Below are positions 10,041 to 44,272 of a stretch of DNA of 48,094 bases, in pieces. Origin of the DNA: a virus; IMG/VR virus record IMGVR_UViG_3300036852_000463, positions 1-48,094 of that record. One strand, given 5' to 3'. Every line of letters starts with the position of its first letter. Within the stretch, counting starts at the first letter, position 1. The notes beneath the pieces were generated by a model, which did not search any database, was not told the origin of the DNA, and saw nothing but the letters and a program-made list of their open reading frames with translations. A program made the position numbers and the translations under genes.

Positions 10041-10675
10041 CTGCTCACGACGAGCCACGCGCTGACCCCGTCCGGTAGGAGCGTGATCGCCGGAAAGATC
10101 GGCGACGCGGCGGCTGGAATGATCGCCAGCGAGGCATTGACCGTGTCGATCGTGTCGGTCCCATCCGGCTCGATTTGCAGCGGTTCGGTCCCCATGTTCT
10201 TGATGGTGAGCGGCCAGCGCGCATCCGCAGCCGGCGGGAGGAAAATCTGTGCGGGGCTCGGGCCACCGGTCGACGCGACCGTGATCGTGTGATCGGTGTC
10301 CGGGTCCACGATGTAGCCGCTCGCGACGTTTTTCGAGCCGAGGAACTGGTAGACGCCGAAATTCTCCCCGAAGACCTGCCCGACATCGACGACGTTATCC
10401 AGCGGGTAGTGCGCCTGAATGACCCCCGCGGCGTTCCTCACCGTGAACTTGTAGCCCTGCGGGAGCAGATAGACCGGATTGGGCGGACACCCGTTGGCGT
10501 CGAGGGTAATCAAGACCGGATTCGCGACCGCGAAATTCGGATCGACGTAGGTCGCGAGCGGCGTCGCGGTGCCCGCCTCAAAACTCTCCAGGGTTCCGAG
10601 CGCGAGCGGCGCGCCGGTAACGGTGACGAACCGCGGCTGAATCCATGGAAGCAAACTGCCGGGGAAAAACGGCAT
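10025..10675 (-). CDS. Tail fibre/spike-like protein with fibre N-terminal module
   Basis: This protein of 216 residues uses the ATG at 10675 behind a strong GTAGGAGGACC ribosome-binding site. Residues 1-95 match the recurrent phage fibre head-binding pattern (QPRFVTVTGAPLALGTLESF, TYVDPNFAVANPVLITLDA, PQGYKFTVRN). A beta-rich C terminus follows (HTITVASTGGPSPAQIFLPP and WPLTIKNMGTEPLQI), like the shaft or tip domains of short fibres. It follows the gp10-like hub genes, as fibre or needle genes do in P22-type clusters. The receptor specificity is unknown. Its last 16 bases overlap the end of the convergent homing-endonuclease-like gene. Confidence 0.7.
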   Translation of the reverse strand: MPFFPGSLLPWIQPRFVTVTGAPLALGTLESFEAGTATPLATYVDPNFAVANPVLITLDANGCPPNPVYLLPQGYKFTVRNAAGVIQAHYPLDNVVDVGQVFGENFGVYQFLGSKNVASGYIVDPDTDHTITVASTGGPSPAQIFLPPAADARWPLTIKNMGTEPLQIEPDGTDTIDTVNASLAIIPAAASPIFPAITLLPDGVSAWLVVSSHGVV

Positions 10676-10683
10676 CGGTCCTC

Positions 10684-10947
10684 CTACAATTCGATCAGAA
10701 TTTGCTGTGCCGCGCCGGTCGGAAACTGCGCCATGAGCTGCGCTTTGCCGGCCCCGTTGTCCTGCGCGAAAATCTGCACCACGCCTGGTAGCGGCACCGG
10801 CGGCGTCGTGAGCTCGCTGAGCGTCAGCACACCCGGCGTCTGCCCGAGGCTCGCCCCAATAAGCTGCAGGAAAAACTTCCACCAGTTGGTCGTGAATCGC
10901 TTCGTGCGCGGGTCGATCGGTTCTTCCTGCGGAAGTGCGAGCGCCAT
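10684..10947 (-). CDS. Small conserved-type virion cluster protein
   Basis: This protein of 87 residues begins immediately after the stop of the upstream hub gene (TAGATG, no gap) and ends nine bases before the next start. It contains an aromatic motif (TNWWKFFLQLIG) and a beta-like C terminus (VQIFAQDNGAGKAQLMAQFP). Small proteins with an xWxxFF core often sit between tail hub and fibre genes in phages, so a minor structural or assembly role is likely. No named family is recognised. Confidence 0.65.
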   Translation of the reverse strand: MALALPQEEPIDPRTKRFTTNWWKFFLQLIGASLGQTPGVLTLSELTTPPVPLPGVVQIFAQDNGAGKAQLMAQFPTGAAQQILIEL

Positions 10948-12912
10948 CTAAAACCGTCCGATGATGGGATCGGGGTCGAAATACGCCCCAATCAGGTTCC
11001 AGTTATTCGGGTCCGACACAATCACCTCGAAGACGACATCGCGCCCGCGCCCGAGGTTGCGCGCGATCACGCGTTTCGCGTACTCGCCGATCTTGCCCGC
11101 ACTCATCCAGATTTCCGGGCTCCACGTTTGCCCCCCGTCCCGCGACATCCGCAGCATGACCTGCGGCTCGACGCCAGGGGGGACGACATTGCCGATCCCG
11201 GGCTGCAGGTCGACCTGGATCGCTGGGTAGAAGATGACGCGCTGTTCCTTCGTCAAATGCGGCGCGCGGCGTACGCGGCGGATCGTCGTTGGGTCAAGCG
11301 TGTAGGCCGCCAGAATCGGCGTGTGCACGACGATGTTGGTCGGCGGCGAGCCGCCACCCGTGGTGTCGACCGTATTGTCGACCGTCGAGGGCGCCGTCGG
11401 CGAGACCGTCACATGCACGATGATCGGCGGATAGCTGTCGCCGGCCGCGAGCGCATCATTCCGCGTGCACACGTTGTCGACACACGTCCAGCCCGTGCCA
11501 CTCATCGAAATCAACGTCAGCGAATCGGGCAAGGTCTCCGTCACTGTGACAGTGCCGCTCGTCGCGCCGTCCCCGACGTTGGTCACGGCCAGTTCATACG
11601 ACCCGGTGCTCTGGCCGCGCCGGAAACTGCCGGTCGCCACTTTAGTAATCTCGAGTTCAGGGCTGGCCGCTACCCGCAGCACAATGAAATTCGTGGCTTC
11701 GGACGGTCCGAAATCCTGCTCGGTGAGGTTGTTCCCAATCCCTTCATCGAAGTTGTCGAGCGTCGGGTAGGCTTCGATGACCGAGAGGTCCGCAGCGAGC
11801 AGATGCCGAAAATGCGACACGCTGAGTGCGGAGTCCTCGGTCCGAATCCACAGCGAATCGGGATCGTCGGCCCCCGGCGCCAATCCGCACACCCACGCTT
11901 CGCCGGCCGGTGCGTCGTAGGTTGCCCGCGTCGTCCCGTTCGATTCGTAGATGACGACCCGCAGGCTTTGATCGGTCGTCTTGAGATAGCCCGCCACCAC
12001 GGCATCATCGGCCAGAACCGCCAAGCTGATGATCTTGTACCCGACAATGCCAGGGGCAAAATCAGGCAGCGCCATATTGGCCACGAGGTCGTAGGCGCCG
12101 ATCGGCGTCGTGACGGAAAAATTCGAGGTGTAAGCGATGAGTCCGCCGACTGAAACCGCAAACGCGTTCAGCGTCACACCGGGCAGGGTCCAGACCGTGG
12201 CGTCGAGCACGCCCGTGCGCGAGACTTTCCGCACCGTGAGCGGCGCGCCCCCAAAGACCGATTTCGCCAGAAAGAAGGAATCGACGTGGTCCTGCGCGAC
12301 AAAGACGTAGCTCGTCCCGATGGGATTCGCCAAGCTCGCGCGCACGGTGCCAAGCGGCGTCGGCTCGTACAGGATGATCGTATCGACGCCCCCGCCGTTC
12401 TTGATCGCCGCAAAACAGATCGTGCCGTCTGGCAAGCTGTCCGCCGTGTCGGCCGCCCGCATCGGCGGTACATCGGTTACGCCCCCTTCGACCAGATTCA
12501 GGACGACCGGCGGGAATCCGTAGTTCGGGTCGGGAACGAGTAAATCACCGACCTGCGGCGCATTGAGCGGCTGCGGCTCGATGCTCAGCGTAATCGTGGC
12601 GTTCGGATCGTCCGGTGTGATGCGGAAGTAGTAGGTCAGCCCGGGCGTGATCGGCTGCTCGATGGGCGCGTTCGGATCGCAGTAGCCGGGATTGAGCGCC
12701 CCCAGCCCAATCCCCTCGAAAATCTCCACGAAGGTGAAATCGCCGCCGACGCTTGAGGTCAGGCGAATGGCTGGGAAAATGTCGGTCGCCAGCGCCACAT
12801 ACGAGAACCACGTCACGGCGGACGCATTGCCACCAAAGTCCCCGCTCGTCGTGAAGGGCAGACTCGCGATCGGCGTCGCCGTGGCCGCCGTGTTATTAGG
12901 GAAAACGGGCAT
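10948..12912 (-). CDS. Tail hub second part: PPC-like, DUF11 and gp10 C-terminal domain
   Basis: This protein of 654 residues is mosaic. Residues about 15-115 resemble a pre-peptidase C-terminal (PPC) beta-sandwich (ATPIASLPFTTSGDF, WFSYVAL, GLTYYFRITPDDPNATITL). Residues about 120-420 are beta-rich and propeller-like. Residues about 425-530 are a DUF11 repeat (LEITKVATG, YELAVTNVGDGATSGTVTVT, LPDSLTLISMSGTGWTC). The last 115 residues match the C-terminal domain of P22 gp10-like packaged-DNA stabilisation proteins (QVMLRMSRDGGQTWSPEIWM, KIGEYAKRVI, LGRGRDVVFEV). It starts on the last base of the upstream gene's stop (TGATG), so the two are translationally coupled. Together they look like a gp10 hub split in two, with adhesin-type domains inserted. 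Confidence 0.75.
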   Translation of the reverse strand: MPVFPNNTAATATPIASLPFTTSGDFGGNASAVTWFSYVALATDIFPAIRLTSSVGGDFTFVEIFEGIGLGALNPGYCDPNAPIEQPITPGLTYYFRITPDDPNATITLSIEPQPLNAPQVGDLLVPDPNYGFPPVVLNLVEGGVTDVPPMRAADTADSLPDGTICFAAIKNGGGVDTIILYEPTPLGTVRASLANPIGTSYVFVAQDHVDSFFLAKSVFGGAPLTVRKVSRTGVLDATVWTLPGVTLNAFAVSVGGLIAYTSNFSVTTPIGAYDLVANMALPDFAPGIVGYKIISLAVLADDAVVAGYLKTTDQSLRVVIYESNGTTRATYDAPAGEAWVCGLAPGADDPDSLWIRTEDSALSVSHFRHLLAADLSVIEAYPTLDNFDEGIGNNLTEQDFGPSEATNFIVLRVAASPELEITKVATGSFRRGQSTGSYELAVTNVGDGATSGTVTVTETLPDSLTLISMSGTGWTCVDNVCTRNDALAAGDSYPPIIVHVTVSPTAPSTVDNTVDTTGGGSPPTNIVVHTPILAAYTLDPTTIRRVRRAPHLTKEQRVIFYPAIQVDLQPGIGNVVPPGVEPQVMLRMSRDGGQTWSPEIWMSAGKIGEYAKRVIARNLGRGRDVVFEVIVSDPNNWNLIGAYFDPDPIIGRF

Positions 12913-14090
12913 CAGGCCATCCGCACCAGCGTATCAATCTGGAAATTGAGATTCAGCTCGTAGATGGCGGCCGAGTCGCGGGCACCGACCAAGTGCTTGC
13001 CGAAGGCGAACGCGTGACACCGCGAGATGTGCTGATGCCAGCGCAGGAGCGTGCTGTCCCACATCGCCCGGTGATGCCACTGCGCCCCCTTCGGGCCGGC
13101 CACGTCGTAGACCGGGCTCCCGATGTGGTCGCGCGTGGCCTCGAGCCCCGGTACGTAGAGATGGTAGAAGGCGTGCCCCTCGTCCTGGTAGGTGTAGGAA
13201 ATCACGTCGTCGAGCTGCTTCGCCTGCGAGAGATAGAACTCAATCGCGTGCGTGCTCACCCGCTGCGCCGCATATCCCTGCGCCCGATACACGACCCGTC
13301 CGCCGGCTTCGTTCTGGCCGATCCAAAAGAGACTATTGTCGATTTCTTCCGCGCAGTAGGGCGACGCGATCCCGTACTCCAACAGCGCCCCTTGAATCGG
13401 CGCCAGCGGGAAATTCGGCGTCCCCACATCGGCCCAGACCTGCGTGTGCTTGCTCCCGAAAAACCACAGCTCCTTGTGGCTGGCCTTCATCGCCCGGACT
13501 TCGTCGCTGAACTGCGAGATTTGCCCGAACCCCGGATTGAAGGCCCCGCTCCACGTCAGCCCATCGAACCGGTCTGAGAGCTGGAAGGCGTGCGAGGCGG
13601 TCGCGGTCGGTGTCGCCGAGGCCGAGCAGAGCGACACAAAGTACCCGTCGATGAAGGCGCCCATGATGGTCGGCAGGGCGAAATTCAGGTCGCTGATTTC
13701 GACCAGTGTGTTCCCGACCAGATCGAAGATGTAGCCGTGACCCCCGCTCGTGATGAACAGCTGATGGCCCGCGGACCCGTTGCTCGAGATCGTCGCCGGC
13801 CGCCCGTCAATCGCTACGCTGCCGTAGGCGACGTGCGTGTGATTCGCCAGTACTTCGTAGAAGATGCCGGCGCCGACCGAAAAACATCGGCCATCCTGGT
13901 AGAACAGCGCCCGAATCGGTCCGTCGTCCAGCACATCCCACGGGTAGATCCCCGGCGTGTGCTGGTCGTAAATCTCGGATTTCGGGTTGCCGCTATCGGC
14001 GAGGCAGGGGTAGAAGTTGATCGCGGCTTCGCGGTTGACCGACCGGACGCGCTCGGAGGCCGATCCTCCACAGAAGCCTTTGAACTCCAT
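12912..14090 (-). CDS. P22 gp10-like packaged-DNA stabilisation/tail hub protein, N-terminal part
   Basis: This protein of 392 residues has the beta-propeller signature of P22 gp10 (Phage_stabilise family): an N-terminal block (EFKGFCGGSASERVRSVNRE, YPCLADSGNPKSE), repeated blades (GHQLFITSGGHGYIFDLVGN, WFFGSKHTQVWADVG), and a W-rich C-terminal region (YQDEGHAFYHLYVP). P22 gp10 is about 470 residues and forms the hub that seals the portal after packaging. Here the usual C-terminal domain is missing and is found at the end of the next gene instead. It sits downstream of the gp4-like gene, although three small genes intervene. Confidence 0.85.
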   Translation of the reverse strand: MEFKGFCGGSASERVRSVNREAAINFYPCLADSGNPKSEIYDQHTPGIYPWDVLDDGPIRALFYQDGRCFSVGAGIFYEVLANHTHVAYGSVAIDGRPATISSNGSAGHQLFITSGGHGYIFDLVGNTLVEISDLNFALPTIMGAFIDGYFVSLCSASATPTATASHAFQLSDRFDGLTWSGAFNPGFGQISQFSDEVRAMKASHKELWFFGSKHTQVWADVGTPNFPLAPIQGALLEYGIASPYCAEEIDNSLFWIGQNEAGGRVVYRAQGYAAQRVSTHAIEFYLSQAKQLDDVISYTYQDEGHAFYHLYVPGLEATRDHIGSPVYDVAGPKGAQWHHRAMWDSTLLRWHQHISRCHAFAFGKHLVGARDSAAIYELNLNFQIDTLVRMA

Positions 14091-14093
14091 GTG

Positions 14094-14369
14094 CTAGACT
14101 ACGTGTCGGCTCTCTGCGGCGTGGAAGGACACGCACGGAAGCGTTGGGCTCGCGATGACGACAGTGGGAGCAGCATGTCGCCTTCTCGCTGCGCCAGAAC
14201 CACAAACGTGCTTGAGCGAATGGGATAGCTCGCACGCGTTAGGCTTGGGTCGATCCGTGGTCGAAGTCTCGCTGGCGAAGATCGATTGAACGGTCAGGCT
14301 GCGCCAACCGCTGAATGCCTGCGAGCTGGGATCGAGCCCGGCCAGAGAGCCAAATCCAGCTACATTCAT
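14094..14369 (-). CDS. Small ORF of unknown function
   Basis: This frame of 91 residues overlaps the upstream cysteine-rich gene by four bases (ATGA) and ends three bases before the gp10-like gene. That spacing suits a genuine gene in this cluster. The protein itself is unremarkable: a Gly/Ser-rich N terminus (MNVAGFGSLAGLDPSSQAFS) and a basic, Cys/His-containing C terminus. The composition is not strongly protein-like, so it could be a spurious frame in a short spacer. No family is recognised. Confidence 0.4.
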   Translation of the reverse strand: MNVAGFGSLAGLDPSSQAFSGWRSLTVQSIFASETSTTDRPKPNACELSHSLKHVCGSGAARRRHAAPTVVIASPTLPCVSFHAAESRHVV

Positions 14370-21620: not shown

Positions 21621-21766
21621 TTCCCGACTGGCAGCAACCGCAGCAGTTCGATGAGGTAGAGAAACAGCACCGCGAGCCAGAGTTCTGCCCTTGGCGGATT
21701 CAACCGCGAGGCGATGAGGAGCAAGAACCCGAGCAGCACGAGCACGCCGATGACCGTGAGTATCAT
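21617..21766 (-). CDS. Small two-helix membrane protein
   Basis: This protein of 49 residues has two predicted membrane helices (ILTVIGVLVLLGFLLLIA and LWLAVLFLYLIELLRLL) separated by a short basic loop (SRLNPPRAE). It overlaps the portal gene's stop and the next gene's start by four bases each, so it is translated in the head cluster. Its size and topology resemble small phage holin-like or superinfection proteins, but there is no direct evidence for either. Confidence 0.6.
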   Translation of the reverse strand: MILTVIGVLVLLGFLLLIASRLNPPRAELWLAVLFLYLIELLRLLPVGK

Positions 21767-24039
21767 GTGGGTCCTCCTCCTTGGGCCGGCTCTTGCGCGG
21801 CGGCAGCGGCCTGCTGTTCCAGCGCATGATCGTGTTCCGCGTCGGCGACAGCGAGCGTCTGAATGTGGTCGATCTGCTGCTGGAACCGCTCGAATTCCGC
21901 TTGAAACGCCGCGATGTCCCGGTCGTTCCCGAGCTTCGCGGCGGCCATCGCGAGCTGGGCCTGGGCCTGAATCATCGCGACTTTCACCTTGGCGTCGGCG
22001 GAAATCTTCTGCGTCTTGATCGTCTCGGCCATCGTCGTCACGGCCGCGTGCGCCTTCTGGACGAGCATCTTGAGCTGCTGATTCTCCGCCTGCATCCGCG
22101 GCAGCGCCGTCTCGGGATCGGCCGGGTCTTGGACCTGTAGCGGCAGCATCATCTTGGCGCGTTTGCTGAGCGCCTGTGCGCTGGGGTTGTCGCTCTGCTC
22201 GAGCACGATGTCGACGCCGATTGCGGCGAGCCCCGGCAGCACTTTGAAGAGTTCGAGGAGCTGCGCGAAATTCTCTTGGCGCTCGGTTTGAAACGAGGGG
22301 CCGGTGCTCACCGTGACTTCGTACTGGCCGACCCCAATATCGAAGACATCGGTCACATCCGCCGGCTTCTCGAAATCCGGTCCTGGCTTGTTCTCCGCCC
22401 CAGCGTGGATGACGACCTGCCGCTTTTTGCCGTCCGGCTCGACGAGGTGAATCAGCCGTGCCGTGTCGTAGATCGCCGGGAACCACTGGAGCAGCGACCG
22501 GCCAATTGATCGCTTGGTCCGCTGGAGATTGTCGAGGTAATTGCTGTTGGCGATGAGGCCCTGCTGCTGGACCGCCGTGATCGCCTTGCCCGACTGCTGC
22601 GGGCCGCGCTCCCCAAGGGACGCTTCAAAGAGCCCCATCACCGCCTTGAGATCCTGGTCGGCTTCCTTCAGCCCGAGGACCATGCCTTGAATTGGCGGCT
22701 CGGCGATGTTGCGCTGGGGCGGGGGAATCAGGTTGCCGTCGACGGTCTTCCCGTCGTAGAGCAGGACCGAGAGCGTCTTGCGGTTGGCTTCCTTCCAGTC
22801 GTCGAGGTACTGGCTGACCTGGCTGGCTTCGGCGAGCCACGGGCTTTTCGGCGTCAGGCCGACTGTCTCGGCGATGCTCGAGGCCCAGAAGTTGTACATC
22901 CGCTGCGGGTCGATCGAGTCGCGCACCATGCCGCGGTAGTCGACCTCGCCGTCCAGATCGTACTCGTCGCCGATGACCGGGAAAATCGGAATGCGGGTGC
23001 CGGGGAGAATGCGGCCAGCGGTCCGGTCGGCGTTCCCCTCGAGGATGTCGACCGCGTTGTGCAGGCACCAGCGCACGACGCGTGTTTCGACTGTCCGTTG
23101 CCGTTTGACGGTGGGCGGCGGGACGGCGGGATTGGCGTAGGCAAACGCCTGCTGCCACTCGCCGAGCTTGTCTTCCCAGATGGCCTGCCCGTTGGTGAGC
23201 TGGAGCAGCACCCGCTCTTCGACCTCGACGTAGAAGTACTCGGCGAGGATGACCTTGCCCTCGGGCATCCAGTCGCTCGCGGAGGAATTCGTTTTGACGA
23301 ATTCGGTCAGGCTGGCATAGGAGGCGATTTCCCCCCAGCGCGACTCGTATTCGTCTTTGCCGAGCGCGCCGATGATGTGCAGGAACCGCGCGTCTCTGGC
23401 GTCGGCTTCCTGAATCGTTGGGTCGCAGTAGACCGACAAGGGGTTGCGGATGCGATCGATCGAACAGACCTGCTCGAACCCCTCATCGTTGGCCCATTTG
23501 GACCGCAGTCGAATCCAGGCGAGCCCAATCCGGCACTGATGGTCAACGGCCGTGTCGTAGGCGACATCGGCATCGCTCTCGACCTCGACGGCGCGCGCCA
23601 ACCCTTGCAGGATGGCGGCGAGCTTCGGCGTTGCCCCCCCGCCTCTCGGGTTGAACTGAATCTGCGAGCGGTTGGCTCGGGCCTGATTGGTTACCTGCCG
23701 GATGAATTGCGGGATGCGGTTGATTTCGAGGCACGGACGCCCTTCCTCGCTGCGGAGGGATTTGTCGGCCGCGTCCCATTGGTTGCCACCCCCGGCGGCA
23801 AACTTCTGGTCGATCCGCATCTTCTCGCGGTTTTTCTGCGAGGCTTGGTCGGAGGTGCGCCAGCGGTCTCGGCTGCGTTGGATGAACTCGCGGACGGCGG
23901 GCGAGGGGCCGCGTGGATTTTGTTCGCTGCCGTCGCTCGTGGCGTAGGCGGATCGGGCCGGCAGCGGCGCCGGCACGCCGTCGCTGTCCGAGCCGAAATA
24001 GGCTCGACCCGTCGGAAGTTCGACGACGGACGCGGCCAT
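21763..24039 (-). CDS. P22-type portal protein
   Basis: This protein of 758 residues (P22 gp1 is 725) matches the P22 portal family: an N-terminal helical block (REFIQRSRDRWRTSDQASQK, KFAAGGGNQWD), then PCLEINRIPQFIRQVTNQAR, the Cys-containing wing segment, and a long C-terminal helical barrel ending in Gln/Ala-rich sequence (HALEQQAAAAAQEPAQGG). Portals form the dodecameric ring for packaging and tail docking. Residues 11-18 read GRAYFGSD, the same short motif found near the ends of several unrelated proteins in this window. A small membrane protein gene follows with a four-base overlap. Confidence 0.95.
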   Translation of the reverse strand: MAASVVELPTGRAYFGSDSDGVPAPLPARSAYATSDGSEQNPRGPSPAVREFIQRSRDRWRTSDQASQKNREKMRIDQKFAAGGGNQWDAADKSLRSEEGRPCLEINRIPQFIRQVTNQARANRSQIQFNPRGGGATPKLAAILQGLARAVEVESDADVAYDTAVDHQCRIGLAWIRLRSKWANDEGFEQVCSIDRIRNPLSVYCDPTIQEADARDARFLHIIGALGKDEYESRWGEIASYASLTEFVKTNSSASDWMPEGKVILAEYFYVEVEERVLLQLTNGQAIWEDKLGEWQQAFAYANPAVPPPTVKRQRTVETRVVRWCLHNAVDILEGNADRTAGRILPGTRIPIFPVIGDEYDLDGEVDYRGMVRDSIDPQRMYNFWASSIAETVGLTPKSPWLAEASQVSQYLDDWKEANRKTLSVLLYDGKTVDGNLIPPPQRNIAEPPIQGMVLGLKEADQDLKAVMGLFEASLGERGPQQSGKAITAVQQQGLIANSNYLDNLQRTKRSIGRSLLQWFPAIYDTARLIHLVEPDGKKRQVVIHAGAENKPGPDFEKPADVTDVFDIGVGQYEVTVSTGPSFQTERQENFAQLLELFKVLPGLAAIGVDIVLEQSDNPSAQALSKRAKMMLPLQVQDPADPETALPRMQAENQQLKMLVQKAHAAVTTMAETIKTQKISADAKVKVAMIQAQAQLAMAAAKLGNDRDIAAFQAEFERFQQQIDHIQTLAVADAEHDHALEQQAAAAAQEPAQGGGPT

Positions 24040-25138: not shown

Positions 25139-25630
25139 TCAATCCTCGAAGTAGGCGCGGCTCGGCGCGATCACCGGCGGCGGCAATTCCTTCCTGCGAG
25201 CAGGAGGATTGACGCGGAACTCGCCAGCAATGGTGAATACGTCGCCGACCTCTAGCACCGGCTGCGGGAGAGAATCGTAATTGCGATTGAAGCGAGTGGG
25301 GATTTTCGCGTATTGGGACAAGATCCCCATCATCTCAGCCACCGCAGCATCGGCGCTCAGGAACTTGTTCGGCATCTGGTTCGTGTTGTCGCCATTTCGG
25401 ATAATCCATTGATTCTGCTGTCGCTCAGCGTTCGGGTTCTGCCATCCGATGGCTTCCATCGCGCGACCGAGTTCCGAGACAACGGTCGCGATGTAGGGAC
25501 CCACGCCAGCATACCCTTCGGGGTCGAGTGCCAACGGGCCACTTGAGCAAGTATACGGGACGCCTGCGCGACGGAAACGATCAAATTCCTCGTTGCTCAG
25601 GTTCGCAAGGATGACCTGCGTGTCGTTCAC
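25139..25630 (-). CDS. Accessory protein with capsid-like FTIAG module and RAYFED tail
   Basis: This protein of 163 residues most likely starts at GTG 25630, which overlaps the upstream stop (GTGA); an upstream ATG would run 60 bases into the neighbouring gene. The N-terminal part is helical (VILANLSNEEFDRFRRAGVP). The C-terminal 40 residues contain VGDVFTIAGEFRVNPPARRK, again like the capsid protein, and end in PSRAYFED. The DNA around the FTIAG module (25190-25253) is clearly related to that in the Tat-signal gene (24711-24775), indicating duplication. Function unknown. Confidence 0.65.
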   Translation of the reverse strand: MNDTQVILANLSNEEFDRFRRAGVPYTCSSGPLALDPEGYAGVGPYIATVVSELGRAMEAIGWQNPNAERQQNQWIIRNGDNTNQMPNKFLSADAAVAEMMGILSQYAKIPTRFNRNYDSLPQPVLEVGDVFTIAGEFRVNPPARRKELPPPVIAPSRAYFED

Positions 25631-25920
25631 GATCTCCAGTCTTTCCTCTTTCGTAGATACGCGCCCTTTCGCGCGAGGCTTTTCACCCATTCGCACAAGT
25701 GAGCATAGACCTCGCCGAGTTGGGCATCGGTCAGACCGGCCGCGATGCTCTGCGGGTTTTCGTTCTTCCGCATGACCGCAATGAAGGCAGGTTCTCCCAT
25801 GAGAAACAGTTCATGGGCCAAGATGCCATGATCGCCATCGCGCAGGAACTTGATCAGGCCGGCAGCGGTCCCGTAGACGCGCTGCTTGTCGGTGAGGAGT
25901 TCGACGGGCCGCGAGAACAT
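25627..25920 (-). CDS. Accessory protein of unknown function
   Basis: This protein of 97 residues is helical (AAGLIKFLRDGDHGILAHEL, GLTDAQLGEVYAHLCEWVKS) with a basic C terminus (RKGAYLRKRKDW). It starts on the last base of the preceding stop (TGATG) and ends in a GTGA overlap with the next gene. No family recognised. Confidence 0.6.
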   Translation of the reverse strand: MFSRPVELLTDKQRVYGTAAGLIKFLRDGDHGILAHELFLMGEPAFIAVMRKNENPQSIAAGLTDAQLGEVYAHLCEWVKSLARKGAYLRKRKDWRS

Positions 25921-27261: not shown

Positions 27262-27862
27262 CGGCTGGTTCTCCGAAGAGTTCATCGACGCGCTTCTGCA
27301 GCATCGCAGCGCGTGCCTCGTCGCCGCCGGTGGCATCGAGGACTTCCTGCCGTGTCGGCCGAGTCGGCATCACGACCGTCTTGTCGCGCTGCGAGGCTTC
27401 GATGCTCTGAATTTCGCTCGTCAACCCGCTGACGGTGCGCGCGTCCTTGAATTCCTGTGGCGTCAACTCCGGCTGAAGTGGCTGCAGGCCCGTCACGTTC
27501 GCCCGCGCCATCTCGAATTCCACATCGTAGGCGATGTCGTGTTCGAACTCGCCAGTCTCTCTGTTGATCTTTCCAAACCGCGGCGTGTATTCGCCCTTCT
27601 CGAACAAGGCGGTCCGGCGCGCCATCTCGTCGTCGTAGTCCTTCGCAATCTGGGCGTTGCGGGCGGTGATGTCCTGCGTCCACGGCGCGGACGGCTGCGC
27701 GGGCGAGTAGGTGCGCTGCGCGCGCTGTTCTTCGACGATCGGCGGAGGCGGACTGAAGGTGCCGCTTTTCAGCGGATCGCGGACGGTCGGCCGGCGCAGC
27801 TTCAGCCAGGCGACGAGTTCTTTCACCGTGAGCCAGCGCGGCATTCCAGGTCTCGGCATCAT
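27248..27862 (-). CDS. Protein of unknown function downstream of terminase
   Basis: This protein of 204 residues starts at ATG 27862, in a four-base overlap with the terminase stop. The N terminus contains a short helix (LTVKELVAWLKLRR) and a Pro-rich linker; the rest is helical and acidic (PELTPQEFKDARTVSGLTSE, DEARAAMLQKRVDELFGEP). It could be a packaging or head-assembly accessory protein given its position, but no motif proves this. Confidence 0.6.
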   Translation of the reverse strand: MMPRPGMPRWLTVKELVAWLKLRRPTVRDPLKSGTFSPPPPIVEEQRAQRTYSPAQPSAPWTQDITARNAQIAKDYDDEMARRTALFEKGEYTPRFGKINRETGEFEHDIAYDVEFEMARANVTGLQPLQPELTPQEFKDARTVSGLTSEIQSIEASQRDKTVVMPTRPTRQEVLDATGGDEARAAMLQKRVDELFGEPADAEK

Positions 27863-29379
27863 GACGACCACCCTCGCTTCACCGCCGGCATGCCGGTGTA
27901 GATGCTTCGTCGCGTGCTGGCGAGTGGCTGCGCTTCGAGTTTCGTTTTCATCCGGTTGCGCGCCCGCACGCCCATTCTGAGCGCGTCCATCAGATGGTCG
28001 TTCTCTTTGGCGATTTTGCCGCGCTCGTCCCGATGATAGGCCAAATACTCTTTGAACACTTGCTGGCACGACGCGAAGACCTTCAACCGGCCCGTGCTCA
28101 GGAGTTCCCACACGTCCTGAATCCCCGCCTCGACCGCCTTGTCGGCCAGCACGATGTCCAGCCCTTCCCGCCGATAGAGTTGCAAAAACTGCGTGCCGTC
28201 GGCTTGGACAACACCGGCCACGTCGCCGACGCCAGGAATCCACGAGCCCATCGCCCGAATCGCCGCGGCGTGAATCGGCACCTCGGCACCGGCCCGCTTG
28301 TATTCCCGGTGGAGATACAGCATGTCGGCTTCCCGGTCGAGCGCCAGCCAGACGGCGGCCGTGTAGCCGGAGGTAGCCGCGTCGAGCGAGAACAGCCGCG
28401 GCCAGTGCGGCGGCAGGATGAAGTCGGCGATCCTGATTTCTGACGCAGGAATCGGGTAGATCGCGCCGGCCCCGAGGCTCGGTTCGCCTTCGGTCCGCGC
28501 CTTGAGCTGGTAGGGCGGCGTCGTCGCAATAACCGCTTTGCGCTCGGCGAGGTCGATGTGGGGCACATCGTCCCAGCCGACCTGAATGTACCACTTGGAC
28601 TCGCGCGCGGCTTCGTTTTCCGGATCGAGGAAGCTGTTGACAACCTTGCTCCGGCCCTTCAGCGGCGTGAAGGTCACGATGACAATGCCCTTGGTCGTGA
28701 CGGTCCGATAGAGCATTTCGGTGTAGCAGTCTTCCGGGCACTCTTCGTCCTGCCAGATGACATGCTTGGCGGTGCCCTCGAACGCTTCCCGGCCCTGCTC
28801 GTAGGACTTCAGCCCGATCGTGCTCGTGCCCCCGCTTTTGTGCTGCACCCAGATTTGCTCGAGCGCGCCCTGGAGGCCGTGAATGCGGCGGGACGTGTGG
28901 CGCACGAGATGCGCCGGAATCATGCCCTCTTCGTTCCGGGGAATGTCGGGCACGCCAATCGATCCCACGAGCTGGACCTGGACGATGTTGCGCGTGGTCT
29001 CGCTCGTCGTGCCGCAGGCCCAGATTTCCACTGGATGATTGAAGCGGCGCCCTTTCCACCACGACGGATAGAGGCCCGTCGCGTGACAGGTCGTTTCATA
29101 GGCGCCGAGCGTGGTTCCCCCGACACGGTTCGCCTTCATCAGCAGCCGTTCTTTGTAGATCGCGCCGGCTTCGATGAACTCCATGTGCTTCTTGTAGAAG
29201 CGGCGCGCGAACGGCCCGCTGTCGGGAAAGAGGGTCGCGAACTTCGACGGCGGCGCACCCTCGGGCTCCTTCATCGCTTCCCGGTCGACGCCGACCGCGT
29301 ATTCCATCGCGCGCTCGACGTGCTGGAACATGCGCTCGAGGGTCAGCGGCGGATCCTGCGCGCCGCCTTTAGGAAGCAT
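27859..29379 (-). CDS. Terminase large subunit
   Basis: This protein of 506 residues is the packaging motor ATPase and nuclease. The ATPase part has a deviant Walker A (K82-ANRVGGTT-90), Walker B (HVIWQDEE, 206-213) and the coupling motif (GIVIVTFTPLKG, 231-242). The nuclease part has LFSLDAATSG (D332), VLADKAV (D412) and NDHLMDALR (461-468). The YPSWWKGRRF block (104-113) is typical of the NRVGKT podovirus terminase group, but the usual P-loop lysine (K of GKT) is Gly here. A lysine at the first position (K82) may replace it, as in lambda gpA (KSARVGYSK). Start at ATG 29379 overlaps the small subunit by 11 bases. Confidence 0.93.
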   Translation of the reverse strand: MLPKGGAQDPPLTLERMFQHVERAMEYAVGVDREAMKEPEGAPPSKFATLFPDSGPFARRFYKKHMEFIEAGAIYKERLLMKANRVGGTTLGAYETTCHATGLYPSWWKGRRFNHPVEIWACGTTSETTRNIVQVQLVGSIGVPDIPRNEEGMIPAHLVRHTSRRIHGLQGALEQIWVQHKSGGTSTIGLKSYEQGREAFEGTAKHVIWQDEECPEDCYTEMLYRTVTTKGIVIVTFTPLKGRSKVVNSFLDPENEAARESKWYIQVGWDDVPHIDLAERKAVIATTPPYQLKARTEGEPSLGAGAIYPIPASEIRIADFILPPHWPRLFSLDAATSGYTAAVWLALDREADMLYLHREYKRAGAEVPIHAAAIRAMGSWIPGVGDVAGVVQADGTQFLQLYRREGLDIVLADKAVEAGIQDVWELLSTGRLKVFASCQQVFKEYLAYHRDERGKIAKENDHLMDALRMGVRARNRMKTKLEAQPLASTRRSIYTGMPAVKRGWSS

Positions 29380-30100
29380 TCGACGGCTCCGTGGCCGGCG
29401 GCGCCGGCACGTCGATCGCGTCGGCCTTCGGCAGCGCATCGAGCATCGACGCGTTGGCGAGTTGGTCGGTCGGGCGCCCGGAGAGCGCGCGAATCTTGTG
29501 CAGGAACGCCGATTTCTGCCGCGGGTCGGTCACGAACTCAAAGACCAGATTGACCATCGCGTGCATGAAGGCCAGCACGCGCTCAACCGGCACGACGGCG
29601 GAGGTGTTCTTGTGCTTGCTGTCGACGAGTTTCCGGCGCGCGTTGATCGTCGCGAGGAGTTCCTTGCGGGTTTTCTCGGTGTCCGTTTTCGCATTGCGGC
29701 GTAGCGCTTTTTCGATCTGGATGTCAACGAGCGCGATTTCAGTATTCAACTCGGCCAGCTCTGGATCGTCGCGGAAATTGGCGAACATCTCGGCGATGCC
29801 CAGATCGCGCAGCACCTTCGATTGCCGGCCGTGTTTGAACGTCGGACTGGCGACGCCGGCCGGCACTTTCCCGCCGTGCATCTTGCAGCGGCCGTTCGTC
29901 AACATCCCGGGCTGGTGACACAGCCAGTCGCCTTTCGAGCCGGGCGTGCGGAGCACGGACCCGCAGAGGCGCGCGCCCTTCGGCGTCCGCAGCGTCGTCA
30001 CCGATTTGATGTGTTCGGGACGCTTCGGGCGTTCCGGCCACGGACCGAGCTTCGGTTCGGTCTTCCCGAATTTGATTTGCGTGTCGGTGGGCGCGCTCAT
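29369..30100 (-). CDS. Terminase small subunit-like protein
   Basis: This protein of 243 residues starts at ATG 30100 in a four-base overlap with the upstream stop and overlaps the large subunit start. It has the Cys/His module often found in phage small terminases and HGG-type proteins (RLCGSVL ... DWLCHQPG ... GRCKMHGGKVPAG, about 44-82), then a long helical region (AEMFANFRDDPELAELNTEI through TINARRKLVDSKHKNT). These proteins bind the packaging site and regulate the motor. The call rests on the module plus its place directly before the large subunit. Confidence 0.78.
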   Translation of the reverse strand: MSAPTDTQIKFGKTEPKLGPWPERPKRPEHIKSVTTLRTPKGARLCGSVLRTPGSKGDWLCHQPGMLTNGRCKMHGGKVPAGVASPTFKHGRQSKVLRDLGIAEMFANFRDDPELAELNTEIALVDIQIEKALRRNAKTDTEKTRKELLATINARRKLVDSKHKNTSAVVPVERVLAFMHAMVNLVFEFVTDPRQKSAFLHKIRALSGRPTDQLANASMLDALPKADAIDVPAPPATEPSNAS

Positions 30101-31492: not shown

Positions 31493-32275
31493 TTACGCGA
31501 TCACTAAACTTCGCTGACTCGTGCGCTTCGCCGCCAATTCTTGATACTCGAGGTCTAGCCCGACCCACCGACGATTCTGCTGTTCCGCTACGAGGCCGAC
31601 CGTTCCGCTTCCAATGAACGGGTCTAGGACGAGCTGTCCCGGTCTCGAGCTGACGGCGATACACCGACGAACCAATTCACGCGGCATAATCGCCGGATGC
31701 GTGCCGTTGGCATCTGAGCGAATATCCCAGACCGAATGTCCCCACCAGGGCTCGCCAGGATTCTCGGCTTGGTAGATTTCTGCGAGTGCCAACAGGAAGA
31801 GATATTCATGGGAGACGGCCGGCCGATCCCGGCGCATCGGTTCGACGGCTGCGGACTTCCGCCACACGATCGTAGAACGTAAATACCACCCGTCTTCGCG
31901 CAGCGCTGAGGCGAGGAGGAATGGAACGAGCGTGAGATCCTTCATCTTGAAGCCAGGCGGAGGCATGCGGAAGCCTTTTCGCTCGCGCACGGTATCCCAG
32001 CACGATCGTCTGGCCGTGCCACCGCCGCCTTTTCCGCTTGCCGCATACACGTCGCCGAGATTGAGCCACAGCGTGCCGTCCGGCCTAAGCACTCGACGCA
32101 CTTCGCGGAAAACATCGACCATCGCCATCACGTAGTCTGCCGGCTGCCGCTCGAGGCCTAGCTGTCTCGAATTGCCGTAGTCGCGGAGCCCCCCCCAATA
32201 CGGAGGACTCGTCACGACCGTTTGCACGCAGGCATCGCGCAGAGGGATCAGCCGCGCGTCGGCTCGAATCAGCAT
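31493..32275 (-). CDS. Solo beta-class DNA methyltransferase (N4-C or N6-A)
   Basis: This protein of 260 residues has the catalytic motif TSPPYWG (22-28) near the N terminus and the AdoMet-binding motif DPFIGSGT (218-225) near the C terminus, the beta-class order. A TSPPYW motif is more frequent in N4-cytosine enzymes, but N6-adenine activity cannot be excluded. A short target-recognition region (about 75-175) lies between. There is no neighbouring restriction enzyme, so it probably protects the phage DNA or marks it for regulation or packaging. Confidence 0.88.
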   Translation of the reverse strand: MLIRADARLIPLRDACVQTVVTSPPYWGGLRDYGNSRQLGLERQPADYVMAMVDVFREVRRVLRPDGTLWLNLGDVYAASGKGGGGTARRSCWDTVRERKGFRMPPPGFKMKDLTLVPFLLASALREDGWYLRSTIVWRKSAAVEPMRRDRPAVSHEYLFLLALAEIYQAENPGEPWWGHSVWDIRSDANGTHPAIMPRELVRRCIAVSSRPGQLVLDPFIGSGTVGLVAEQQNRRWVGLDLEYQELAAKRTSQRSLVIA

Positions 32276-32616: not shown

Positions 32617-32922
32617 TCAGTCTTCAAAATACGCCCGAGGACCGAGCGCGACGACTGGCGCCGCCGGCACGACAATCGAAGGGCCGTACGTAATGGCCAA
32701 ATCCGGCGCCTGCCGCGTGACGACGTAGTTATAGCCCGCAGGGTCCAGCACTTCAAGATCGTAGACCTCGCCACCAGCGCAGATGATGTTCAAGGTCGCC
32801 GGCCGATCAAGTCGCTGGCGCACGACTTCGATAACCCGCGGCAGGGTCACGATCCGCCACGCGTTGACCTCAGCTGCGTCTGGCCGAAACCGAATGTCGC
32901 AGCCGTTGAAGAGCCATACCAT
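32617..32922 (-). CDS. Unknown protein with C-terminal PRAYFED
   Basis: This protein of 101 residues has a beta/alpha pattern (WRIVTLPRVIEVVRQRLDRP, ATLNIICAGGEVYDLEVLDP) and ends in GPRAYFED. The first residues (FNGCDIRFRPD) share CDIRF with the next upstream gene (TQCDIRFDDA). It is three bases from the RAYFDE-tailed gene. No family recognised; the shared tail is the most notable feature. Confidence 0.6.
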   Translation of the reverse strand: MVWLFNGCDIRFRPDAAEVNAWRIVTLPRVIEVVRQRLDRPATLNIICAGGEVYDLEVLDPAGYNYVVTRQAPDLAITYGPSIVVPAAPVVALGPRAYFED

Positions 32923-32925
32923 CGG

Positions 32926-33399
32926 CTACTCGTCGAAGTAGGCGCGGGGACCACCGAGGACCGCCGGCTGAAGCCGCGACAGACGCGTCGGGCCACCGGC
33001 GGTAGAACGCACCGCATATCGGCGGGGCGGGCGGACCGTGACGGTGTCGCCAACTAGGTTATCCTTCAGTGTTCCCACGCCGTAGAGCACATCGAGACGC
33101 GCCGGATATTGCTCGCGCCACGCCTCGCCCTTCGTGTTGATTTCCGCGTTCTGCTGATTGCGGATTCTCGCCGCTTCCGCCGCGATCGGCGCATTCGCGC
33201 GGCCGGATTCGATGGCCGGCACGATCTCCCCGTTCCAGCGCCACGAGCCGGGCAGCCTGTCGACACCCATCGCCTCGCAAAACGCCTCTGTCGTCAGCGG
33301 GAGATCCGGTTCTCGAATGAAGCGCTGGATTGCATCATCAAAGCGAATATCGCACTGGGTCTGCGAGAGCTGCTCCATCTTTTTAAATTCCCAGCTCAC
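32926..33399 (-). CDS. Unknown protein with capsid-like RLDVLYGV and PRAYFDE tail
   Basis: This protein of 157 residues uses a GTG start at 33399, overlapping the upstream stop (GTGA). The N-terminal 90 residues look helical (DDAIQRFIREPDLPLTTEAF, ARIRNQQNAEINTKG). The segment YPARLDVLYGVGTLKDN then matches the C-terminal end of the major capsid protein (ITRLDVLYGVAVLRQE). The protein closes with GGPRAYFDE. It adjoins the PRAYFED-tailed gene. Function unknown; capsid-derived sequence in a non-capsid protein is the point of interest. Confidence 0.62.
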   Translation of the reverse strand: MSWEFKKMEQLSQTQCDIRFDDAIQRFIREPDLPLTTEAFCEAMGVDRLPGSWRWNGEIVPAIESGRANAPIAAEAARIRNQQNAEINTKGEAWREQYPARLDVLYGVGTLKDNLVGDTVTVRPPRRYAVRSTAGGPTRLSRLQPAVLGGPRAYFDE

Positions 33400-33776
33400 C
33401 GGACCCTCCAGTACACCCAGCGCGGTTGCCCGTTGATGGGCTGCTTCTGCCGGCGCACTTTCCCTTCGGCGATCAGATCGATGAGCGCCCGGGAAATATG
33501 CTCCATGTCGTTCTGGCCGGTGCTCTCCATCGCGTCGCAGATCGCCCGCAGGCCCAACGGGCGCACGGGCTGCGGCGCTGGCAATTTCGCGAAGACCAGA
33601 TCCCGCAGACGGAACCCGGGGGCCCGGAACCCGCGTGTCGATCGCTGGATGCGCATCTCCTTCACAACCTCGCCTTGCGCCGCCGCACGCGCCGCCGTCG
33701 AGACCATCGGCCCCATCGCCGAGAGGCTGAAGCGACCACCGGCGCCGGACCACACGGTTTCGAGATCGTCGCTCAT
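33396..33776 (-). CDS. Winged-helix-like protein
   Basis: This protein of 126 residues starts at ATG 33776, overlapping the upstream stop (ATGA). The C-terminal half (LGLRAICDAMESTGQNDMEH, ISRALIDLIAEGKVRRQ, RWVYWRV) has the helix-helix-wing pattern of a winged helix, and the N-terminal half is basic and Ala-rich. Probably a DNA-binding regulator of unknown target. Confidence 0.6.
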   Translation of the reverse strand: MSDDLETVWSGAGGRFSLSAMGPMVSTAARAAAQGEVVKEMRIQRSTRGFRAPGFRLRDLVFAKLPAPQPVRPLGLRAICDAMESTGQNDMEHISRALIDLIAEGKVRRQKQPINGQPRWVYWRVR

Positions 33777-38645: not shown

Positions 38646-40208
38646 ATGAAAGACCAATCGCTGATTGACCAACTGAAAGCGGCACGCAAGGTCTCAACGC
38701 CCTTGCTCGCCATCACGACGGCCGATCCGCCCGCGACCGTCGCCAGTATCCTGCGGGCGTTCAAGGGCGCGAGCGAACCGCCGATCCTGCAGCATGACAT
38801 CATCCGCGGCCTAGTCGGGCTGACTGACTTGGGCGTGGCGGCGCGAGCTGAGCTCGTGCCGGATGATGGCGTGATGGGGGCGGGTGATGCCGTGCTGCAA
38901 TCGCCGGCGGAAGCGCTGGCGGCCGCCACGAAGCTGCCGAAGCGCGCGCTACTCCTGGTGCACAACGCGAATGTTCTGCTCCAGAATGAGGCTGTGATCC
39001 AAGCCGCCTGCAATCTCCGCGATGCGTTCAAGGCGGACGGGCGGACTGTGGTGTTTCTCGATTGTCAAATCAGCCTGCCGGCGCAGCTGGTCCAGGATGT
39101 GTTGATTCTCGACGAGCCGTTACCCTCTGAGGCGCAGATTGCCGCCATCATCGATCAAGAACTCAAGAATGCCGTGGCGTCGATGAAGCCGGCGCCGACG
39201 ATGCCGGACGAGGCGACGAAACAGCGCGCGGTGGAGGCGTTGTCGGGGCTGGCGGCCTTTCCAGTGGAGCAAGCCGTGGCGTTGTCACTGCTCAGCGGCG
39301 CGCTCGAGCCCGAGCAACTATGGGCGCGCAAACGGAAGTTCATCAGCCAAACGCGCGGGCTCTCGATCGACAACGGGCGCGAGACCTTTGATGACCTCGG
39401 CGGACTCGAGAACGCCAAGACCTTTGGCCGGGCGCTCTTCGAGGGGCGCGCGCGACCGCGGGCGATCGTGCGCATCGACGAGATCGAAAAGATGCTCGGG
39501 GGTGCGAGCTCGGATACCTCGGGCGTCAGTCAAGATGCTCTCGGGACCATTCTGCGCGAAATGGAAGATCGAGAATGGGCCGGGCTGATTGCCGTCGGGC
39601 CGCCCGGGTGCGCCAAGTCGCAGTATTCGAAAACGCTGGGGCACACACACGGCGTGCCGACGTTCGCGCTTGACCTGGGGGCCGCCAAGGGCTCACTGGT
39701 CGGCCAGTCCGAGGAACGGATCCGGGCCGCCATGAAGGTGATTCTTGCCGTCGCGGGGTCCGGGGCGTTCTTTGTGGCGACGTGCAACAAGCTCGATGCG
39801 TTGCCGCCCGAGCTGCGGCGCCGCTTCCGGTATGGCCTGTGGTTTTTCGATTTGCCGACGGCGGACGAGCGCGCGGCAATTTGGGCGATCCATCTGGCGC
39901 GGTTCGAACTGTCCGAGGCGGACGCCGGGCCGAAGCCGAGCGATACCGATTGGACGGGGGCTGACATCCGCAACGTGTGCGAGCTCGCGTGGCGCATGCG
40001 CAAGCCGCTGATTGACGCGGCGCGGTTCATTGTGCCGGTCGCGGTGTCTGATCCGCAGTCGATCGACAAGCTGCGGACGACGGCGCACGGCAAATTCTTG
40101 AGCGCGAGTCACGCAGGAACCTACAAGCACGCCAAGGCTCAGAATGTGCCGGCGGCCGGGGTGGTGCAGTCGGTCGCGGTCGGGCGATCGTATGGAGGGG
40201 ATAGCTAA
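38646..40208 (+). CDS. Ycf46-like AAA+ ATPase with circularly permuted core
   Basis: This protein of 520 residues starts at ATG 38646 after AAAGGAGCCGCT. Residues 95-170 (ALLLVHNANVLL, RTVVFLDCQISLPAQL, VLILDEPLPSEAQIAAIID) match the N-terminal domain of Ycf46-type ATPases, and 195-255 (ALSGLAAFPVEQAV, DDLGGLENAK) the family's linker. In the AAA+ core, Walker B (IVRIDEIEKMLGG, 274-286) comes before Walker A (GPPGCAKS, 318-325). Sensor 1 (ATCNKLDALP, 378-387) and the Arg-finger region (RRRF, 391-394) follow directly, with no second Walker B between. WTGADIRNVC (436-445) is a sensor-2-like element. DUF1257-like and DUF2997-like genes follow. Substrate unknown. Confidence 0.88.
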   Translation: MKDQSLIDQLKAARKVSTPLLAITTADPPATVASILRAFKGASEPPILQHDIIRGLVGLTDLGVAARAELVPDDGVMGAGDAVLQSPAEALAAATKLPKRALLLVHNANVLLQNEAVIQAACNLRDAFKADGRTVVFLDCQISLPAQLVQDVLILDEPLPSEAQIAAIIDQELKNAVASMKPAPTMPDEATKQRAVEALSGLAAFPVEQAVALSLLSGALEPEQLWARKRKFISQTRGLSIDNGRETFDDLGGLENAKTFGRALFEGRARPRAIVRIDEIEKMLGGASSDTSGVSQDALGTILREMEDREWAGLIAVGPPGCAKSQYSKTLGHTHGVPTFALDLGAAKGSLVGQSEERIRAAMKVILAVAGSGAFFVATCNKLDALPPELRRRFRYGLWFFDLPTADERAAIWAIHLARFELSEADAGPKPSDTDWTGADIRNVCELAWRMRKPLIDAARFIVPVAVSDPQSIDKLRTTAHGKFLSASHAGTYKHAKAQNVPAAGVVQSVAVGRSYGGDS

Positions 40209-40513
40209 TGCCTTGCGATCAGGTCATTTTGAATCAGATCGAACTCGGCAAGATGAACGATGCGCTACTCCGCAAGGCGCTCGAGGCGCTGGGCGCGCGC
40301 GGGCTGTCGGTCGGCAGTGGCGCGGCGTGGTTCATTCTCGACGGCGTGCGCTGTCAGATCGTCGGCGGGAAGCTCCAGGTGCCTGAAGGGTCCGAACATC
40401 TGGCCGACAAGCTGAAAGTCGCCTATTCGCGCGAGACCGTGAAATACACGGCGAAGCGCAACGGCTGGACGTTGAAAGAAACGCGCCCGAATGTCTTCGC
40501 GGTGATCAAGTGA
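40208..40513 (+). CDS. DUF1257 (Ycf35)-like small protein
   Basis: This protein of 101 residues starts on the last base of the ATPase stop (TAATG). The N terminus (ALLRKALEALGARGL) and the C-terminal KVAYSRETVKYTAKRNGWTL segment fit the DUF1257/Ycf35 pattern, with a beta-rich middle (GVRCQIVGGKLQV). Family members are commonly encoded beside AAA+ ATPases and DUF2997 proteins. Its biochemical role is unknown; by gene order it is likely an adaptor or partner of the ATPase. Similarity is moderate and by eye. Confidence 0.65.
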   Translation: MPCDQVILNQIELGKMNDALLRKALEALGARGLSVGSGAAWFILDGVRCQIVGGKLQVPEGSEHLADKLKVAYSRETVKYTAKRNGWTLKETRPNVFAVIK

Positions 40514-40761
40514 AAGGGCCACTGCGCCAAATCGTCGACCGCGAGCAGGTCTTTCGATCGACGCACGACTACCCGGACGGTTGGATCAAAGAGACGCTCA
40601 GTTGCGGCCACGTTCATCTGATGCGTATTTCTCCGCATTCGCCAGCGGTCATTGAAGGGAACGACGGACAAAAACGGATCGTTCGCGAGCAAGTGAACAG
40701 TCGCCGCTGCGTGGAATGCCTGTACGGAATGCGCCTGAAAGGAAAAAGCCGCTATGCCTGA
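40510..40761 (+). CDS. Small zinc-binding protein
   Basis: This protein of 83 residues uses a GTG start at 40510 in a GTGA overlap. SCGHVHLM and RRCVECLYG give a CxH ... CxxC metal site, probably one zinc. It sits between the DUF1257-like and DUF2997-like genes, so it may belong to the same complex. No named family. Confidence 0.6.
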   Translation: MKGPLRQIVDREQVFRSTHDYPDGWIKETLSCGHVHLMRISPHSPAVIEGNDGQKRIVREQVNSRRCVECLYGMRLKGKSRYA

Positions 40762-40954
40762 CACAATGACAATCGAAATTCTGCCGGATGGGACGGTGAA
40801 GACAACGACCGATCCGATCTCGCCGGCCAACCACCAATCGGCTGAAGCGTTCATGAAGGATCTGCAGACGTTGACCGGCGGCCTGGTGAGCCGCAAGGCG
40901 CGCGGGAAGCACGCGCATGTGCATCACCAGGAGCACGCCGACCACTCGCACTGA
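40754..40954 (+). CDS. DUF2997-like small protein
   Basis: This protein of 66 residues starts at ATG 40754 after AAAGGAAAAAGCCGCT. The N terminus (TIEILPDGTVKTTT) followed by a helix (NHQSAEAFMKDLQTLTGG) fits the DUF2997 pattern (beta hairpin with PDG, then helix). The His-rich tail (GKHAHVHHQEHADHSH) could bind metal and is not typical of the family. With the ATPase and DUF1257-like genes it completes the triad known from bacterial genomes. Assignment is by short motif. Confidence 0.55.
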   Translation: MPDTMTIEILPDGTVKTTTDPISPANHQSAEAFMKDLQTLTGGLVSRKARGKHAHVHHQEHADHSH

Positions 40955-43597: not shown

Positions 43598-44272
43598 ATG
43601 CGGCGAGCGATCGACAACGAGACGTGCCAGGTGAGCGGGTGCCCGCGCGTGCGGCAGTTTCCGTCCTGGTATTGCGAGGAGCATCGCGGCGAACGTCAAC
43701 AGAAGACGCGTCAGACGGTCCCAATCGTCAGCGTCGACGGCGAACGTCGCGATGTGGAGATTGCCGGCGCGGCATCGGGTTATGCAGTGTTCAAGCGAGA
43801 GCAAGACATCGCACTGATGGAAGAACAGCAACGAGGATTGGCCGAGCAGCGTCGTCAGCTCCAAGAGCAGGTGAACTACTGGCAATCAAGAAAAGCTGAA
43901 CTCGCCCAACTTGCGCCGTATGGCCCATTTCAGGTCACGCCCGAGCAGGAGGAGCTGATTCGCCGGAATGACCGCATGATCGAACTTGAGTATTGGCCGC
44001 GCGAAGAGTACGAGAGCCGTCGGGAATATCGGGAAGCGGAGGAAGCACGGCGCCGCGAGGCAGAAGTGAGGCAGGTCGCGATCGACCGAGAAACCGGCAT
44101 CAGCCTGAGATATATTCGGCAATTCGACGCCAAGACCGATCGGCTTCAATTCAATCGGGACGCTTTCAAGATCGCGATGGCGCCGCTGGAGACCATGAAG
44201 CCGAAGCCGAAACAGAAAGAGAAAGTCGCCCCGCTCAACGTCGACCTGAAACGCCAGTATTTCGAGGATTGA
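43598..44272 (+). CDS. Coiled-coil early protein with zinc-like N terminus and capsid-like C terminus
   Basis: This protein of 224 residues begins with a Cys/His cluster (CQVSGCPRVRQFPSWYCEEH), probably a zinc site. A long charged coiled coil follows (about 70-160, EEQQRGLAEQRRQLQEQVNY). The C-terminal part contains GISLRYIRQFDAKTDRL and QFNRDAFKIAMAPLE, both resembling capsid segments of P22-type coat proteins (GISILFVRAYD and AFHRDAFTLVTADLP in this genome's coat). It ends in KRQYFED, a variant of the PRAYFED tail. Function unknown. Confidence 0.65.
   Translation: MRRAIDNETCQVSGCPRVRQFPSWYCEEHRGERQQKTRQTVPIVSVDGERRDVEIAGAASGYAVFKREQDIALMEEQQRGLAEQRRQLQEQVNYWQSRKAELAQLAPYGPFQVTPEQEELIRRNDRMIELEYWPREEYESRREYREAEEARRREAEVRQVAIDRETGISLRYIRQFDAKTDRLQFNRDAFKIAMAPLETMKPKPKQKEKVAPLNVDLKRQYFED

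Follow-up and report, generated by a model that had tools for sequence, protein, structure and literature searches.

An internal block exchange in the core of Ycf46-like AAA+ ATPases that are encoded with DUF1257-, DUF2997- and DUF3150-like partners in phages and bacteria

To our knowledge, the motifs of AAA+ proteins are regarded as having an invariable succession, with Walker A first, then Walker B and then sensor 1. This is also the order seen in the described Ycf46-like ATPases of phages (profile phrog_8638), e.g., EVC24_084 of Rhizobium phage RHph_I4, where Walker B lies at +59 relative to Walker A. The ATPase family analyzed here resembles these proteins in its N-terminal domain, linker, core sequence and lid but differs in the order of its motifs. 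The genomic setting is similar as well, since RHph_I4 has annotated DUF1257 and DUF2997 genes near its ATPase, like the loci described below. Members of the p97-like clade of AAA+ proteins assemble into rings, and these rings exert a pull on proteins.

The window, i.e., the whole stretch of 48,094 nucleotides that was analyzed, represents a tailed phage, since it encodes a portal protein, the large terminase subunit and a DNA methyltransferase-like protein (Table 1). A 1610-residue protein encoded at positions 1126-5958 on the minus strand is without any PHROG match. In the ATPase, the Walker B motif RIDEIEK spans residues 276-282 and the Walker A motif GPPGCAKS follows ∼40 residues later at residues 318-325; sensor 1 starts at residue 378 (ATCNKLDALP, with ATCN at 378-381). 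The interval from Walker A to sensor 1 was searched for another Walker B, and none was found. The sole acidic stretch in this interval, QSEERIR, was rejected as a candidate because it does not fit the hhhhDE pattern. Our analysis thus bears out two proposals of a first-pass annotation made from the sequence alone, namely that Walker B stands ahead of Walker A with sensor 1 behind, an order that recurs in 167 loci, and that no acidic Walker B lies between the latter two.

Despite this unusual order, the protein is matched by the Pfam AAA profile (E 1.4e-11, in two stretches) and by phrog_8638 (E 4.6e-42, in four stretches). Canonical members align to phrog_8638 in one or two stretches and permuted members in four, with no colinear match over the whole protein. 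A permuted-family profile also aligned to solved p97/VCP-type sequences in crossed order: profile positions 301-361 correspond to chain residues 320-380, 259-309 to 377-429, and 343-437 to 402-501. Homology to AAA+ proteins is shown by these Pfam and p97/VCP matches, and we read the motif order as something that the known members have in common and that homology does not require.

Comparison of the consensus sequences revealed that two blocks have changed places, block A (b1, Walker A, a1, b2 and a2) and block B (b3, Walker B and a3). Everything on either side of these blocks is unmoved, namely the N-terminal domain and linker before them and sensor 1, the arginine-finger region and the lid behind them. 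The N-terminal domain is homologous, with phrog_8638 positions 21-288 matching residues 3-274 of the permuted protein of phage Tunturi_3. The first-pass annotation had called the N-terminal domain and linker Ycf46-like and suggested a search with a Ycf46-type profile; this search, with its match in four pieces, and the position of both regions in the permuted consensus agree with that description. It had also termed the ATPase circularly permuted. The core is indeed rewired, but the ends of the AAA+ domain are unchanged and only an internal pair of segments is exchanged, so that "circular permutation" is imprecise. The domain has undergone an internal block swap, from AB to BA, and is not circularly permuted in the strict sense.

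Table 1. Coordinates of the ATPase, its partner genes, proteins with the shared C-terminal tail, and phage marker genes. Positions refer to the window unless locus L089 is named.
Feature	Position	Strand	Basis or remark
Permuted Ycf46-like AAA+ ATPase, 520 aa	38646..40208	+	Translation (ATG at 38646, stop ends at 40208), Pfam AAA, phrog_8638, AlphaFold2
Displaced block B, residues ∼269-311	39450..39578	+	Strand b3, Walker B (276-282), helix a3; precedes Walker A
Block A, residues ∼312-372	39579..39761	+	b1, Walker A (318-325), a1, b2, pore-loop-1 region, a2
Sensor 1 strand, arginine-finger region, lid and tail	39762..40208	+	RRF at 392-394; C-terminal tail GRSYGGDS
DUF1257 (Ycf35)-like protein, 101 aa	40208..40513	+	Divergent short form; iterative HMM, hhalign
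Small Cys/His protein of 83 aa, possibly zinc-binding	40510..40761	+	Only 2 matches
DUF2997-like protein, 66 aa	40754..40954	+	His-rich tail; relatives, hhalign
DUF3150-like helical protein, 319 aa	41030..41989	+	C-terminal tail TRLYGDD; relatives
Tagged window protein 1	25139-25696	-	
Tagged window protein 2	32617-32922	-	
Tagged window protein 3	32926-33753	-	
Tagged window protein 4	43598-44272	+	
Tagged L089 protein 1	3548-4438	-	
Tagged L089 protein 2	10110-11135	+	
Tagged L089 protein 3	11207-11503	+	
Tagged L089 protein 4	11493-11732	+	
Tagged L089 protein 5	11878-12192	+	
Tagged L089 protein 6	12962-13513	+	
Tagged L089 protein 7	13302-14366	+	
DNA methyltransferase-like gene	31496-32275	-	
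Terminase large subunit gene	27859-29436	-	
Portal gene	21766-24039	-	

Scans of viral contigs and bacterial genomes, in which all fetched loci were classified by a motif rule, yielded 167 permuted, 60 canonical and 20 unclassified loci. The first of these numbers counts loci (at least 167), some of which were fetched twice, and corresponds to ∼140 distinct permuted proteins after de-duplication. The offset from Walker B to Walker A is about −40 residues in permuted loci (between −39 and −47 in the set examined first) and +58/59 residues in the canonical Ycf46-like ATPases of phages. The permuted order was found in viral contigs, in bacterial genomes and in gp103 of the cultured phage Tunturi_3; its bacterial carriers include Acidobacteriota, Nitrospira (with N. 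moscoviensis represented by a complete chromosome), Armatimonadetes and Deltaproteobacteria, besides others. Hence the module is not restricted to phages, as the wording "phage-encoded" of the first-pass annotation would imply. A repeat scan of the viral contigs returned no loci beyond those already found.

The ATPase gene is followed by a conserved set of partners. Based on iterative HMM searches, relatives of the 101-aa DUF1257-like protein are present in 151 of the 167 permuted loci; the 66-aa DUF2997-like and the 319-aa DUF3150-like proteins have relatives in 145 and 155 of them, respectively. All three occur together on the strand of the ATPase in 139 loci, and the commonest gene order, ATPase-DUF1257-DUF2997-DUF3150, is that of the window. 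None of the window's own three proteins has a direct Pfam match to DUF1257, DUF2997 or DUF3150, and their assignment relies on relatives. For the 101-aa protein, 5 of 16 relatives match DUF1257 (PF06868; best E 2.9e-8) and hhalign of the family gives a probability of 54.8 (E 1.2e-4), which lends moderate support to its membership in DUF1257. The other two partners belong, through their relatives, to DUF2997 (PF11211; 7 of 18 relatives, best E 1.6e-15; hhalign probability 92.7) and DUF3150 (PF11348; 10 of 22 relatives, best 8.3e-8). An AlphaFold2 model of the DUF3150-like protein has a pLDDT of 85.6, and a fold search with this model retrieved generic helical bundles and nothing that matched with confidence.

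Much of this gene cluster had been anticipated from the window alone: the DUF1257- and DUF2997-like neighbors hold up by way of their relatives, and the survey of gene order shows that they recur with the ATPase. The possible zinc protein placed between them and the long helical protein behind them are both there, the latter being the DUF3150-like partner. However, the small Cys/His protein is not conserved, as only the window and one other locus carry it, and it was dropped as a part of the module. Replication-initiation matches in one alignment stemmed from a single member, probably an unrelated Rhizobium phage protein, and the alignment was rebuilt without it. A conserved protein of ∼98 aa is encoded in 54 permuted loci (e.g., L032, 9236-9487), at a distance of ∼1.7 kb downstream from the ATPase gene; the window's cluster has no member of this family. 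Moreover, gp96 of Tunturi_3 (L003, 7621-8649; PP885686), annotated as an HNH endonuclease, corresponds to the DUF3150-like partner by HMM comparison, and its annotation is probably wrong.

Chromosomal copies of the module were examined in three loci, L189, L195 (Nitrospira moscoviensis) and L206; genes for MerB and MerT adjoin the module in L189. The neighbors in Nitrospira and acidobacterial genomes include mercury-resistance genes, helicases (one of SNF2 type), a primase-like protein with a CHC2 zinc finger, ribonucleotide reductase and a DUF6094 methyltransferase. The helicase, CHC2, mercury-resistance and DUF6094 genes suggest that the bacterial copies examined sit on integrated mobile DNA. 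Helicases, the CHC2 protein, ribonucleotide reductase and the methyltransferase would also fit a module that acts in the replication or maintenance of mobile DNA, rather than as the general protein remodeller that we propose below. Yet these neighbors differ from one genome to the next, whereas the four-gene core is constant, and we consider such a dedicated replication role possible but somewhat unlikely. It would also be compatible with remodelling if the protein acted upon were one that takes part in replication.

All AAA+ hallmarks, i.e., Walker A, Walker B with its catalytic glutamate, sensor 1 and the arginine finger, are present and conserved in the permuted ATPases. Of 131 permuted sequences, however, 88 have alanine, serine or cysteine in place of the glycine that precedes the Walker A lysine, whereas all 56 canonical ones keep this glycine and read GK[ST]. 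Because most permuted members have lost this glycine, their ATP turnover could be altered, and at the extreme the protein might bind ATP or only scaffold its partners without hydrolysis. Such a degenerate ATPase appears quite improbable given that K324, E279, E281, K282, T379, N381 and R393, which include the catalytic glutamate, the Walker A lysine, the sensor 1 asparagine and the arginine finger, are invariant among 29 aligned relatives, and that the acidic pair of Walker B is DE or EE in 131 of 131 permuted sequences. In addition, a close relative with 67% identity to the window's ATPase (L001) retains GPPGSGKS. Pore loop 1 frequently has an MKGSLV-like form in permuted proteins and an LFGSLV-like form in many canonical ones.

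AlphaFold2 predicted the window's ATPase with a pLDDT of 87.2 (>90 over most of the core) and a pTM of 0.76. The modelled elements follow each other in the order b3 (273-277), a3, b1 (312-317), a1, b2 (339-342), a2, b4 (374-380) and b5 (398-400), and the core superimposes on p97 D2 (6g2v) with a Z score of 16.9 and an rmsd of 2.6 over 200 residues. As the aligned range of p97 D2 alone is silent on residue pairing, we used covariation among 131 permuted sequences, a set of modest depth (Neff 88). Among parallel strand pairings, b1-b4, b3-b4 and b3-b2 had the three highest scores; they are the neighbors in a normal AAA+ sheet, although the b3-b2 score is barely above that of the non-neighbors b2-b5 and the single enrichments are weak (best p ∼0.002-0.02). 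The end of a2 (365-371) also covaries with the start of b3 (272-275); these segments adjoin in the canonical order and lie ∼97 residues apart in the permuted one. Together, the modelled elements and the covariation favor a normal AAA+ fold, in which Walker A and the displaced Walker B are likely to form one active site.

The new connections would in principle also permit a domain swap, in which the displaced Walker B block packs into the neighboring subunit of a ring and two chains contribute to every ATP site, and covariation is blind to the difference between contacts within and between chains. However, the AlphaFold2 monomer places all elements with high confidence, and the join between the blocks, WAGLIAVGPPG, is short and seems to resemble a normal turn from a3 to the next strand. 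We thus regard trans-complemented sites as highly unlikely and keep to a site formed within a single chain as the probable arrangement.

For the phylogeny, four blocks were aligned separately and then concatenated in one order for 131 permuted and 55 canonical sequences. All 131 permuted sequences fell into one clade apart from the canonical ones, indicating that the swap probably happened once; the tree is midpoint-rooted and shows a clean split of the two groups, not a rooted origin. An assembly or sequencing artefact can be set aside with near certainty, as the order recurs in 167 loci that stem from many projects, and also in a complete chromosome and in a cultured phage, and no support for an artefact was found.

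The module itself may be older than the rearrangement. A plasmid of Candidatus Manganitrophus (CP114554, MPW17_22100 to 22120) carries annotated AAA, DUF1257, DUF2997 and DUF3150 genes in the same order as the permuted loci, and its ATPase shares 29% identity with a permuted query, of which the alignment covers 85%. This ATPase differs, however, in being canonical, with GLQGCGKS followed by CVLFIDELDK and then ATSN. Because this four-gene set occurs there with an ATPase of canonical order, the module probably predates the swap. We propose that the permuted protein is a phage Ycf46-like AAA+ ATPase and that its core underwent one internal block exchange, for which the likeliest and simplest route would be a tandem duplication to ABAB, from which the outer halves were then lost to give BA. 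The permuted chain would still fold as a five-stranded sheet of order 5-1-4-3-2 and bring Walker A, Walker B, sensor 1 and the arginine finger into one predicted ATP site. By analogy with the p97-like family, it could work as a ring-forming protein-remodelling machine, with the DUF1257 and DUF2997 proteins as putative small co-factors, adaptors or regulators, which the helical DUF3150 protein would join. Taken as a whole, a block-exchanged Ycf46-like AAA+ protein with one ATP site that probably remodels proteins as a ring together with these three partners is the explanation we hold to be probable. Such a machine would serve mobile elements, i.e., phages and probably prophages or integrative elements.

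Eleven proteins without detectable mutual homology, four from the window and seven from locus L089, end in R-x-[YF]-F-[DE]-[DE/N], e.g., PRAYFDE or SRAYFED. Internally, this strict motif occurs once in ∼58,000 positions. The ATPase and DUF3150-like proteins of many relatives, including those of the window, carry looser, genome-specific forms of the tail. With internal positions as control, an R-x-hydrophobic tail was observed 32 times in other ORFs of permuted loci versus 11.1 expected (P 2.6e-7), a test which treats ORFs as independent although related loci are not. An earlier, looser test against shuffled tails, with a somewhat different motif, gave a weaker excess (32 versus 17-18). The tail may mark clients, mediate docking or have another role; proteins that share it are candidate clients or complex members and offer a lead to possible substrates of the machine. 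A more detailed version of our proposal, in which the swap alters the mechanical coupling of the Walker B strand, pore loops and P-loop in the block-permuted clade, thereby relaxing the Walker A glycine, and in which tag-addressed phage proteins are the clients, is tentative and in our view unlikely.

A permuted AAA+ core is a structural change that would surprise specialists. Among the open-access papers searched, none described a permuted AAA+ domain or this family, none gave biochemical data on the family and none mentioned DUF3150 by name, which does not imply absence elsewhere. A large clade with a fixed internal permutation means that the AAA+ fold tolerates rewired connectivity, and provides a natural experiment on how ATP hydrolysis is coupled to pore-loop motion. 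It also calls for caution with colinear HMMs, which split such proteins into pieces. Furthermore, DUF1257, DUF2997 and DUF3150, all families of unknown function, are tied into one module, for which the cultured phage Tunturi_3 with its permuted ATPase offers a test system.

Among proteins of solved structure, p97/Cdc48 D2 and related classic AAA domains are the nearest sequence relatives of the permuted family and share its core fold, but they have the canonical block order, form double rings and carry other N domains. A rearranged motif order that still yields one site is familiar from the circularly permuted GTPases of the YlqF/RsgA type, which are likewise P-loop NTPases. In contrast to the ATPases described here, where two blocks are swapped internally, these GTPases belong to another superfamily and are circularly permuted over the whole domain.
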